Assembly: GCA_021773815.1 (NCBI GenBank)
Contig: JAJFJS010000134.1
Span: 1 to 52,354 of the forward strand
Origin: Gammaproteobacteria bacterium
GTDB taxonomy: Bacteria > Pseudomonadota > Gammaproteobacteria > Steroidobacterales > GCA-2729495
DNA length: 52,354 nucleotides
Direction: 5' to 3'
Of the stretch, positions 33,515 to 38,205 are shown piece by piece. A program made the position numbers and the translations under genes. Each line of letters opens with the position of its first letter. Position 1 is the first letter of the stretch. The notes beneath the pieces were generated by a model that was not told the origin of the DNA, searched no databases, and worked only from the letters and a program-made list of their open reading frames with translations.

Positions 33515-33616
33515 TCAGGTACTGATCGCAAAGTCATGCAGGCAGGACGCGTAAGCAATCCCGACCGCAATCAGGATCGTGACCAGCGCTATGCGCTCGA
33601 TCATTCTTCCGTTCAT
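33515..33616 (-). CDS. 33-residue single-pass membrane peptide behind an attenuator
   Basis: A 33-codon frame (starting MNGRMIERIAL) has the textbook ribosome binding site GAGGAGGA 4 bp before its ATG. Residues 8-24 form one hydrophobic helix (RIALVTILIAVGIAYAS) followed by CLHDFAIST, so it is probably a small membrane protein with a short tail containing one Cys. It begins 30 bp after a strong terminator hairpin and lies downstream of a sigma-70-like promoter, so its expression should require read-through. No family recognised. The codon use and ribosome site make it likely to be real. Confidence 0.6.
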   Translation of the reverse strand: MNGRMIERIALVTILIAVGIAYASCLHDFAIST

Positions 33617-33646
33617 GACGTCCTCCTCGCTTTTTACATGGGGCAC

Positions 33647-33680
33647 AAAAAAGCCCCGGTCAACCATGCCGACCGGGGCT
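33647..33680 (-). terminator. Intrinsic terminator / attenuator hairpin
   Basis: On the minus strand AGCCCCGGTC-GGCATGGTT-GACCGGGGCT forms a 10-bp stem with a 9-nt loop, followed by a run of six T (33647-33652). It lies between the promoter at 33861-33888 and the small membrane ORF. Confidence 0.88.
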
Positions 33681-33854
33681 GTGATCTCCGGAAGGCCAGA
33701 ATGCCTTCCGAACGTATTCGGAAAGCGTCAGTTCATCGCCATGCAGGCATGCACGCCGGTCATCGACAGGCGACAACAGGTCGCCGAACGCGACGGCGAT
33801 CCGTCGCGCAGGACGGATGCGATGGTGAATTTTTGTGTGCACATATTCATGGGG
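33647..33854 (-). ncRNA. Candidate structured leader RNA or small RNA (~205 nt)
   Basis: Between a good promoter and the terminator the minus strand can form successive stems: GCATCCGTC with GACGGATCGC, TCCGAATACGTTCGGA, GGAAGGC-ATTCT-GGCCTTCC and the terminator itself. A Cys/Met-containing reading frame (MNMCTQKF ... HACMAMN) spans its first half but would start almost at the transcript end and has no ribosome binding site. The RNA could be a metabolite- or stress-sensing attenuator for the downstream ORF or an independent sRNA. Confidence 0.5.
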
Positions 33855-33860
33855 GCGCGT

Positions 33861-33888
33861 ACTCTAACAGAGCATTGACGCATGTCAA
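33861..33888 (-). promoter_or_regulatory. Sigma-70-like promoter for the leader RNA
   Basis: On the minus strand a perfect -35 TTGACA (33888-33883) is followed after 16 bp by TAGAGT (33866-33861). Start of transcription would be near 33854. It is one of the best-matching promoters in the window. Confidence 0.65.
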
Positions 33889-35059: not shown

Positions 35060-36580
35060 ATGGCTCGACGGACGAAAGGTCAGGCGGCATGGTGGTGCCT
35101 GGTGGCGGGTAGCCTGTTGGCTGCGGCGCCGCTCGCGCGCGCCGATTATTTCGACGATGTCGGCATCTCGGCGTTGCGCGATGAATTCGGTGCGGCGCTG
35201 CCAGTCGCGTCCGACGTGCCCGTGATGATCGTGGAGGCGGATCGTGATGCCGATCCGGGTAACGTGGAGTATGCGCCCGATCCCGATTACCCGGAGTTCG
35301 AGGGTCAGATCCTGACCGTCGGTGAGGGTGGCCCGCGTGTCTACGCACCGTTTTCTGCGCATGCAACGGGGGTCGGTCGGCGATTCTTCGGGCTGCGCTC
35401 GTCGGTTGCGCCGGGAATTGACCGGATCGCGGTCTATTCGACGCTGAACTGGCTTGGACCTGCGTTTTTGCGTCTGGGCGAAATCCGCGGGCCGAAGGCG
35501 GCGGTCAGTCGCGTCGCCGCGCATGCGTGGGTCGGCAGTGCCGACAGCGATATCACCGGCGCGGCCAATGCCGAGACGTTGCGGCGGGTCGACTGGCTGA
35601 TCGAACGCGATGAGTTGCTGCATGTCGTGGGCTTCAACGGCAGCCGCAGCGCGCCGCTGCTGGCCGATGCTGGCAATGTGCTCGCCGTCGCCCACACCGG
35701 GACAGACCGCCACCGGGCAACGCTTGCCATCGACGCCGACTACGTCGCCGGGCGCACGCGACCTCATCTCGTCGCGCCGGACAAGACGCCGAGCGGCGCC
35801 ACCGGACGCATCGCCTCGGTGGCAGCCATGCTGATCGGTGCCGGCCACGACGACCCGTCGCTGTCGCGCGGGTCGACCAAAACGCGCACGGGTTGGCGTA
35901 TTTACAATGCCGAACGGGCCGAGGTGATCCGGGCCGTGCTGATGAGCGGCGCCGACCGGATCACGGCGAACGGCGACGGGGCGAATATCACCGATTATCG
36001 CGTTGCCGAGGGCGATCGGATGGATAACGGGCTGGATAGACGCTACGGCGCCGGGCAGCTCAATGCCCAGCGCAGCTATCGGATCCTGACGGCCGGCGAG
36101 CAGGACAGTCGCGAGGACGGCGCGGCCGGCGGACGCATCGCACCGATCGGATTCGATTACGACGCATCGTTTGGCGGCGCGGGCGGCAGCAATGCGCAGG
36201 CGACCTATGCGTTGGTGACCGGTGCGGGCGGCGGGGTGCTGACCGCCACCCTGGTCTGGAACCTGGAGATCGTCGGCGGTGCGCTGTTCTTCGACCCGAC
36301 GGGGGTCCGACACGACCTGGACCTGTTCCTCGACGACGTGTCGGGCGGCCGGCGCCGGGCGGTTGCCGCGTCCCGCGGCAGCCTCGACAATAACGAGACG
36401 CTGCACGTGACGCTTGCGCCCGGACGTCGTTATGAGATTCGCGTGCGCCCCGGCGACGATCAGCGGCCGTTCGACCGGGATTATGCTCTCGCCTGGCAGG
36501 TGACGGCCGGGGCGGCGGCGGTCGGACCGGCCGGCGATCCGGGCCCGTCGCCGCACGGTCCGGTGCGCCCGGGATCCTGA
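35060..36580 (+). CDS. Exported subtilase-like protein with altered active site
   Basis: After a signal peptide ([20 protein letters not shown]) the 506-residue protein follows the layout of S8 peptidases: VPVMIVEAD where the catalytic Asp strand should be, [13 protein letters not shown] at the His helix, NVLAVAHTG and RPHLVAPD, then [16 protein letters not shown] matching the Ser helix (GTSxAAPxVAGxAA), and [13 protein letters not shown]. The Ser and a His can be aligned, but the Asp strand reads EAD and glycines around the Ser are shifted, so activity is doubtful. A C-terminal beta domain (about 370-490) resembles pre-peptidase domains. It could be a binding protein derived from a protease. 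Confidence 0.55.
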
Positions 36581-36618: not shown

Positions 36619-38205
36619 ATGTCCGACCACGAGCAAGAAACGGCGCGCCGACGGACGTTTGCGATCATCTCGCATCCGGACGCCGGCAAGACGACGCTGA
36701 CCGAAAAGCTGTTGCTGTTCGGCGGGGCGATTCGCGAGGCCGGGTCGGTCAAGTCGCGCAAGACCACGCGCCATGCAACATCGGACTGGATGGCGCTCGA
36801 GCGCGAGCGCGGCATCTCGGTGACATCATCGGTGATGCAATTCCCGTATGCGGGGCGCATCGTCAACCTGCTCGATACGCCCGGCCATGCCGACTTCTCC
36901 GAGGACACGTACCGCGTGCTGACTGCGGTCGACTCGGCGCTGATGGTCATCGACTGCGCCAAGGGCGTCGAGGAGCGAACCATCAAGCTCATGGACGTCT
37001 GTCGGTTGCGTGATACGCCGATCATGACGTTCATCAACAAGCTTGATCGTGAAGGCCGGGATCCGCTCGAACTGCTCGACGAGGTCGAATCGATACTGAA
37101 AATCGAGTGTACGCCGATTACCTGGCCGATCGGCATGGGGTCGCGACTGCAGGGGATCTATCATTTTCTGACCAACGAGGTGCACCTGTACGAGAGCGGC
37201 CGCAATTTCACCCGCCAGGATTCGACGCGTTTCGCGTCGCTCGATGATGCCGGGCTTGTCGAACGGATCGGCGCCGATGTCGTTGCGGAATTACGGGAGG
37301 AACTCGAGCTGTTGCAGGGCGCGTCCCATGCGTTCGATGTGCAGGCATACCTGGCCGGTCGTCAGACGCCGGTCTTTTTCGGTTCGGCCGTCAGCAGCTT
37401 CGGCGTTGAACCGTTGCTCGATTTTTTCGTCGAGCACGCGCCGGCGCCGCATGAGCAGATGACCCGGACGCGGACGGTCGCGGCGACCGAAACCGACCTG
37501 ACCGGGTTCGTGTTCAAGATACAGGCCAATATGGATCCGAAACACCGCGACCGGGTCGGCTTCATGCGCGTTTGTTCGGGCAGCTACAAGCCCGGTGATA
37601 CGCTGTTTCATGTGCGCAGCGGCCGCAATGCGCGGGTCTCCGATGCGCTGACGTTCATGGCCTCGGATCGGGTGAGTGTCACCGAGGCCTATCCGGGCGA
37701 TATCGTCGGGCTCAAGAATTACGGCACGATTGCCGTCGGCGATACGTTTACGCAGGGTGAGTCGCTGCAGTTTACGGGCCTGCCGAGCTTTGCGCCCGAG
37801 TTGTTTCGGCGTCCGCAGTTGCGGGATCCGCTGCGGGCCAAGGCGCTGCAGAAGGGCATCGATCAACTGTGCGAGGAAGGCGCGGCCCAGTTGTTTCGCC
37901 CGCTGGCCTCCAACGACCTCGTGCTCGGGGCCATCGGCGTGTTGCAGTTCGACGTCGTGGCCTATCGCCTGCGTGACGAGTACAACGTGGCGGCGCAATT
38001 CGAGGCGGTCAACGTCTTCACCGCACGCTGGGTCTCGAGCGACGATCCGGAAAAGTTTGCCGAGTTCTGCAAGCGCGAGGTCCGCTATCTCGCCGTCGAT
38101 GCCGCGGGCAGCATGACCTACCTGGCGCCGAGCATGGCGAATCTGCAGGTCACGCAGGATCGCTGGCCGGCGATCCGTTTCGCCGCTACCCGCGATATCG
38201 GCTGA
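36619..38205 (+). CDS. prfC: Peptide chain release factor 3
   Basis: RF3 (528 residues) is the GTPase that removes RF1/RF2 from the ribosome after termination. GTPase motifs: [15 protein letters not shown] (P-loop), RGISVTSS (switch I), [14 protein letters not shown] (G3) and NKLDREGRD (G4). Domain II and III follow with typical RF3 sequence ([22 protein letters not shown], and near the end [20 protein letters not shown]). The length is standard. It is a housekeeping gene within an otherwise accessory-looking stretch. Product assignment is firm. Confidence 0.97.

Follow-up and report, generated by a model that had tools for sequence, protein, structure and literature searches.

A candidate ribosome-sensing transcription attenuator ahead of a 33-codon ORF, and its relatives in Gammaproteobacteria

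In the attenuators of amino-acid operons such as trp, his and ilv, a leader open reading frame (ORF) is followed by mutually exclusive hairpins, and the position of the ribosome decides which of them forms. A related arrangement has been reported in Pseudomonas aeruginosa, where the PA5471.1 leader precedes armZ, an RtcB-like gene. According to two reports, full translation of this leader leads to termination, while stalling or loss of the leader ORF turns expression on, and the system responds to ribosome-targeting antibiotics (PMC12057347, PMC13041342). Deletion of the leader or an early stop within it is reported to raise ArmZ, and loss of the tRNA CCA-adding enzyme to act through the same leader (PMC12057347, PMC13041342); the first of the two, a review, describes the arrangement as apparently unique to MexXY (PMC12057347). 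In Sinorhizobium meliloti, the upstream ORF of a DUF1127 attenuator is described as reporting translation efficiency by transcription attenuation (PMC12218461). Extra tRNA arrays form a further point of comparison. They can be silent in normal growth, as in Anabaena, where an array, the trn operon, is described that is induced by translation-targeting antibiotics and repressed by TrcR; slipin and RtcB genes are among those affected by TrcR (PMC10272220).

The element considered here lies in a stretch of 52,354 nucleotides from a gammaproteobacterial contig; the whole stretch is called the window below. An initial annotation of positions 33515-33888 had described a promoter, a structured RNA, a terminator and a tiny ORF, and had proposed an attenuator or a riboswitch. 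That layout was confirmed, with all elements on the minus strand (Table 1), and a 40-codon leader ORF that had been overlooked is added to it. By sequence and folding tests the element looks like a genuine attenuator. The leader ORF, the exclusive covarying segments and a switch in silico strongly support this part of the proposal, and specifically an attenuator of the ribosome-sensing type. The best reading, to which we give a probability of about 0.8, is a ribosome-mediated transcription attenuator that would be ON when translation of the leader fails.

How does this locus compare with the described systems? Like PA5471.1-armZ, as that system is described, it has a short leader ORF, a terminator before the gene and the same polarity (PMC12057347, PMC13041342); in addition, two distant members of the attenuator family, G491 and G526, precede RtcB. 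The comparison is with published descriptions. However, in the 26 accepted leaders of the order the ORF begins 8-10 nt past the -10 box and has 30-63 codons; mainly tRNAs lie behind these leaders, or else ABC or AAA genes, and behind that of the window a 33-aa membrane peptide. The trp, his and ilv attenuators share the leader ORF and the mutually exclusive hairpins. They differ from the window element, whose leader holds no run of codons for a single amino acid and ends at a stop that abuts segment 1, and whose switch is predicted to be ON, not OFF, without translation. The Anabaena trn operon is controlled by a DNA-binding repressor, and the words 'terminator' and 'leader' are absent from the main text of that report (PMC10272220). 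In S. meliloti, attenuation is reported to depend on how accessible C-rich codons near the beginning of the upstream ORF are, and not on a switch behind the stop codon (PMC12218461). No description of the present attenuator family was found in the open-licence literature, judged by titles and the openings of abstracts.

Table 1. Features of the candidate attenuator and the following ORF (window coordinates)
Feature	Position	Strand	Remarks
-35 box TTGACA	33883..33888	minus	exact TTGACA also in leaders of relatives
-10 box TAGAGT	33861..33866	minus	16-nt spacer, TG ahead
C-rich discriminator, 10 nt, between -10 box and ATG	33851..33860	minus	
Leader ORF, 40 codons, ATG at 33850	33728..33850	minus	from translation
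Segment 1, pairs with 2	33717..33726	minus	
Segment 2, pairs with 1 or 3	33703..33712	minus	
Segment 3, pairs with 2 or (antiterminator) with 4	33687..33696	minus	
Segment 4, ascending terminator arm; predicted to pair with 3 in the ON state	33668..33677	minus	
Intrinsic terminator (4:5) and T run	33647..33680	minus	terminator scan, folding
Shine-Dalgarno AGGAGG, 5 nt ahead of ATG	33622..33627	minus	
33-codon ORF, one hydrophobic stretch	33515..33616	minus	presumed regulated gene

The promoter of the window element matches the consensus at 10 of 12 positions over its two boxes, in agreement with the annotation. In its spacer and GC-rich discriminator it resembles rRNA and tRNA promoters, and a promoter of this kind would suit RNA supply during growth. 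The ATG of the leader stands 10 nt past the -10 box, and the RNA probably begins at or very near it, which would make the ORF near-leaderless; its TGA stop (33730-33728) abuts segment 1. The structured RNA, announced as ~205 nt, measures ~204 nt. A 208-nt RNA from the window folded at z -4.13 relative to shuffles, none of 200 being as low, and the terminator called textbook has a stem of 13 pairs (33680-33652) and six T, ending at 33647. Over 8 kb, a promoter scan found 2 sites against 1.3 expected, which alone is not significant, and a terminator scan found 11 against 5.2, which is above chance. The window element is considered more than chance because it is conserved in relatives.

Does the RNA belong to a known class? 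None was recognised by the initial annotation, and a search of the window with 4227 Rfam families likewise gave no match at the gathering threshold. The best sub-threshold match of the 3' end is sX11 (RF02230), which has a stem followed by a similar terminator; its score of 35.1 bits, however, is below the 70 needed for gathering, and by Rfam's rule the element is not a member. A 6S-like RNA was discarded for lack of an Rfam match. An attenuator of amino-acid biosynthesis was also rejected, as the leader lacks a regulatory codon run, the next ORF is the 33-codon one, and a Pfam scan of nearby window ORFs found no amino-acid biosynthetic gene.

The switch consists of mutually exclusive helices, 1:2, 2:3, 3:4 and the terminator 4:5. 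The covariance analysis of homologous leaders that the initial annotation had called for was run on an alignment of 26 leaders (A5), fitted to 2:3 and 4:5, and it shows that the antiterminator 3:4 covaries. The stored helices are paired in 93.8% of 643 cells. The antiterminator, which is a rival to the fitted fold, is paired in 89.8% of 245 cells, compared with 10-48% for slid controls. Six of its ten pairs changed on both sides. Of 500 shuffles, none reached the observed value for four of the five measures, and seven did so for the fifth. Helix 1:2 is paired in 85.0% of 207 cells, its slid versions in 32-67% (highest 66.5%); three measures beat all 500 shuffles, but two do not (137/500 and 160/500). 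Covariation support for 1:2 is weaker.

For folding, the RNA was cut before segment 5, and its first 12 nt were held open to represent the cover of a ribosome. Over the 26 leaders, covering lowered the predicted mean number of 3:4 pairs from 8.5 to 1.3 and raised that of 2:3 pairs from 0.7 to 9.2. The window RNA is predicted to form 1:2 and 3:4 in one state and 2:3 in the other, its 3:4 pairs falling from 7.2 to 0.0 when the 12 nt are covered. When segment 1 of the window was shuffled, the mean for 3:4 was 0.02, with none of 60 trials as high. The same shuffling left 3:4 as high in at most one of 60 trials for 19 of the 26 leaders, in 2-9 for six and in 27 for L122. A second folding run gave gains of 3 pairs or more in 22 of 26 leaders; the remaining gains were 2.8 (L028), 2.2 (L077), 0.6 (L121) and 0.9 (L123).

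Folding was also run on a set of 26 rows, namely class matches and rejected matches from the order. Rows judged true gained between 1.7 and 6.5 pairs, except L128 and L140 (0.0 each); segment 1 of L128 probably lies upstream of the stretch. The two RtcB leaders gained 0.0 and 1.7. Five scorable rows without a leader ORF did not switch (gains of -0.3 to 0.0), and nine rows were unscorable, having no letters in segment 2 or 3. At equilibrium the terminator beats the antiterminator in folding, so that the ON state requires the RNA to fold while it is being transcribed. An additional pairing, between segment 4 and the end of the leader, was noted by hand in one subgroup only and was dropped.

What might such a switch sense? 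We infer that ribosome control in vivo would work as follows. A strong promoter resembling those of rRNA and tRNA would produce an RNA beginning at or near the ATG of the 40-codon leader. If the leader were translated to its stop, the ribosome would cover segment 1, segments 2 and 3 would pair, and the 4:5 terminator would form (OFF). If initiation failed, or the ribosome stalled upstream because of a ribosome poison or a damaged or uncharged tRNA, 1:2 and 3:4 would form instead; 3:4 would capture the terminator arm and RNA polymerase would read on (ON). In relatives, tRNA arrays with slipin, RtcB and other genes would thereby become inducible by translation stress, and in the window the 33-aa membrane peptide would be switched on. 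The leader product drifts while an ORF ending at the switch is kept, as expected if translation, and not the peptide, is sensed.

Is the element found in other genomes? A DNA search gave matches at E<=0.01 in seven of 60 related genomes, its own included, and G017 is a true second copy; of the five weak matches beside it, L005 and L007 were inspected and L003, L004 and L006 left out. The window and G017 (BLAST E 1.8e-9) share the block from promoter to ATG, the 3' stems and the terminator, and differ in the middle. An exact pattern scan of the genome collection returned six stretches, one of them a true homologue (L023, the G017:C83 contig) and five in unrelated groups, and a pattern scan of 246 genomes returned the window genome (G000), G017 and a chance match, L011. 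A two-sequence model of the 3' region (R1) found 23 places in 16 of 40 genomes. Inspection of 14 of the 21 that were not already known yielded new leaders in G015 and G044:C30, both with an ORF that begins just past the -10 box and ends at the first stem; the rest were like plain terminators. A 5' model (R2) gave one extra match. Here, at L031 1501-1649 (G043), a promoter beginning like that of the window (TTGACATGCG) lies directly before a tRNA-Leu-like sequence cut by the contig end, which was read by eye and in which ARAGORN called no gene. One leader compared with plasmids and phages by BLAST gave no match.

The slipin gene of G044 offered another route to relatives. Of 246 genomes of the order, 14 have slipins related to it (E<=1e-30), and the sequence upstream was scanned for TTGACA with up to one mismatch, followed after 15-18 nt by TAnnnT and then by a short ORF with an ATG start. 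Leaders were found in nine of the 14 (G141, G040, G201, G042, G112, G209, G220, G015 and G044), and the same scan also gives one in G017. The scans showed no leader in G234, G085 and G214, and the slipin contigs of G190 and G194 are too short to judge. Eleven aligned 3' regions then made up the covariance model R3, which leaves out the 5' module and, like every model made, contains the window row; the window scores E 3.5e-13 as one of these 11 rows.

In 296 genomes of the order, R3 found at least 53 rows (E<=1e-4), spread over 46 genomes; these counts are lower bounds because stricter filters lose some weak matches. The 30 rows at E<=8.8e-6 were examined, and 23 weaker rows stand outside the count. 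The 5' module, that is, a promoter, 8-10 nt and a leader ORF ending at the switch, is present in 26 of the 30 places, and such a leader ORF is missing in G107, G130, G117 and G234. Eleven of the 26 leaders had been used in R3, which leaves 15 of 19 places as an independent test. The accepted leaders come from 23 of the 296 genomes. Exact TTGACA is found in 21 of the 26 leaders (window included) and in 10 of the 15 that had not been chosen by it; four have a poor -35 box. The discriminator measures 10 nt in 20 leaders, 9 in one and 8 in five. Leader products of 30-63 aa differ greatly in sequence between members.

When 369 genomes of the class were searched with R3 at E<=1e-6, 17 places came up in 16 genomes, and two of these places were known from before. 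Ten of the 15 new places were judged to be true attenuators; five were accepted by script, and the other five (G491, G526, G387, the second copy of G296, and G533) by eye. Those in G649, G501, G406, G566 and G494 were rejected as plain terminators. The 5' leaders of G491, G526 and G593 seem to be longer. The window element thus belongs to an attenuator family scattered through its order and class. Relatives conserve the stems and the switch; no clear homologue of the 33-codon ORF was found in 296 genomes. Tandem attenuators occur in G532 (L133 1229-1592), where a second leader ORF and switch directly follow the first terminator.

Which genes lie behind the switch? ARAGORN was run over up to 6 kb downstream, less where the contig or fetched stretch ends. 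It found tRNA genes for 18 of 26 leaders, between 1 and 26 each; G220, G044 and G295 have one each, that of G295 3.5 kb away, and in G017 one of two lies on the other strand. In G015 the leader is followed by 16 tRNA genes and a slipin gene, and in G044 by one unassignable tRNA and a slipin gene (Band_7 in Pfam). Arrays of up to 26 genes, some with unassignable anticodons and several with slipin, are seen at L055 10751-13473 (G015), L066, L068, L115 and others. In 15 of 26 leaders, the 80 nt that follow the terminator contain a boxA-like 12-mer with no more than 3 mismatches to the consensus; these sites suggest that the tRNA array may be subject to antitermination of the rRNA type.

Other leaders precede protein genes. 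Five (G132, the second copy of G141, G135, G241 and G102) are followed after ~40 nt by a protein of 282-283 aa matching ABC_membrane_3. The ABC_membrane_3 proteins at L109, L112, L117, L120 and L121 showed no ATPase domain match in Pfam. The second G220 copy, whose leader starts with GTG, precedes an AAA ATPase of 366 aa (L123 1234-2334). Among class members, an RtcB gene directly follows the attenuator in G491 and G526, the latter as a partial ORF. These genes lie at L128 1623-2819 and L130 389-1147 (L130 partial), and their leaders seem to have a Shine-Dalgarno sequence and a longer 5' end. Attenuators in G387, in G593 and at both G296 loci are followed by tRNAs. In G453 (L127), the first 40 residues of the next ORF match DUF7220, and the start of this protein looks hydrophobic, possibly another membrane output. 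The downstream genes (tRNAs, RtcB, Band_7 slipin) point to translation stress or RNA repair.

In the window, 30 nt separate the T run of the terminator from ATG 33616 of the 33-codon ORF, and the ribosome site, annotated as perfect, is AGGAGG at a 5-nt spacing. The frame is also open from ATG 33667 within the terminator (50 codons); the start is taken as 33616 because AGGAGG points there. A full AGGAGG at 4-9 nt precedes three ATGs in the 52-kb window, this one among them. A 19-residue mean hydropathy of at least 2.0 is reached by 3 of 205 ATG ORFs of 25-60 aa, including this frame counted from 33667, and the hydrophobic 19-mer scores 2.16. The peptide matched nothing in Pfam at E<=0.1 and nothing in NCBIfam and PADLOC at E<=0.01, and in 296 genomes it matched only itself at E<=0.001 (best other E 0.005). 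Control of a regulatory membrane peptide, as first proposed, is plausible in its layout, which resembles that of the five ABC loci, but the 296 genomes hold no clear homologue of the peptide. Given the attenuator, the 33-codon ORF is likely to be the regulated gene.

The statement that nothing else lies downstream on this strand holds locally; the next minus-strand ORF with a Pfam match, among nine scanned, encodes an SDF transporter (31976-30663). In the congeners G002 and G003, the rhomboid gene and the 145-aa gene that flank the element in the window lie 50 bp apart without a leader, whereas in the window they are 594 bp apart. R3 finds nothing at the corresponding loci of the congeners, and the third congener, G001, has no match to the 145-aa protein. 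The absence from G002 and G003 therefore indicates that leader and 33-codon ORF are one insert, or that both were lost there together. No tRNA gene was found in the window and no slipin in its genome, and the next ORF, which lacks a Pfam match, is not an RtcB/ArmZ gene. In the absence of tRNAs and slipin, the window is therefore placed in the switch family but not among the tRNA-array/slipin operons. Elsewhere in the window, a gene for peptide chain release factor 3 (36619-38205) lies ~3 kb from the attenuator on the opposite strand, probably by coincidence, and the sole Pfam match of a 506-aa ORF (35060-36580), to DUF6340 at E 0.07, falls below threshold.

Could the attenuator have arrived with a tRNA-array/slipin cassette that has since been lost, the 33-codon ORF being incidental? 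The window has no tRNA genes, its genome has no slipin of the G044 subfamily at E<=1e-30, no boxA-like site follows its terminator, a leader without a tRNA in the ~3 kb covered downstream is also known from G057, and the peptide lacks homologues. A relic should nevertheless have lost its helices, which in the window still form and switch in silico. Within the window, AGGAGG is seldom combined with a hydrophobic stretch, and five homologous leaders also have a membrane-protein gene at ~40 nt; we regard such a loss as unlikely. Still less probable is a stand-alone gene for a trans-acting small RNA ending at the terminator, with the 33-codon ORF under its own promoter. It would account for the promoter and strong terminator, and for the sub-threshold resemblance of the 3' end to sX11. 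Yet 26 of 30 homologous places have a leader ORF that stops at the switch while its sequence drifts, the antiterminator covaries, the downstream genes have related functions, and the promoter scan shows no promoter-like site between the terminator and the 33-codon ORF.

If instead the 40-aa leader product were a functional small protein and the RNA structures incidental, the ORF in 26 of 30 places would be explained, as would the excess of pS over pN in 23 of 26 within-group leader pairs (one tie, two reversed). However, pN/pS is at least 0.5 in nearly all of these pairs, and length (30-63 aa) and sequence vary. The stop codon sits at the switch in all 26 accepted leaders, and the exclusive helices covary, which leaves this explanation very improbable. 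The riboswitch half of the earlier proposal, extended to a protein-binding leader or a small-molecule sensor, draws on the strong structure ahead of the terminator and is hardly credible: no Rfam family matches at the gathering threshold, and what decides the predicted fold is whether the stop codon of the leader is occupied. By eye, the conserved positions of A5, which starts at the stop codon, are those that pair in 1:2, 2:3, 3:4 and 4:5, and there is no conserved unpaired core.

The ribosome-mediated attenuator is thus preferred, and a wider reading can be put forward tentatively. A new family of general translation-stress attenuators, with near-leaderless ORFs and a multi-segment switch, may control a portable stress module of tRNA arrays, slipin, RtcB, and ABC and AAA proteins. 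Here it would be paired with a 33-aa membrane peptide in an insert of ~540 bp, the peptide being made when translation fails and perhaps slowing growth. The principle is known; the family, the segment design, the tRNA-array targets and the pairing with a membrane peptide appear to be new. How are silent tRNA arrays switched on? To our knowledge, this is known in few cases. If the reading is true, a ribosome that fails would itself induce spare tRNAs, slipin and RNA ligase. The switch also suggests a broader design, of which PA5471.1-armZ is one instance and in which tiny membrane peptides are possible new outputs of the same sensor.
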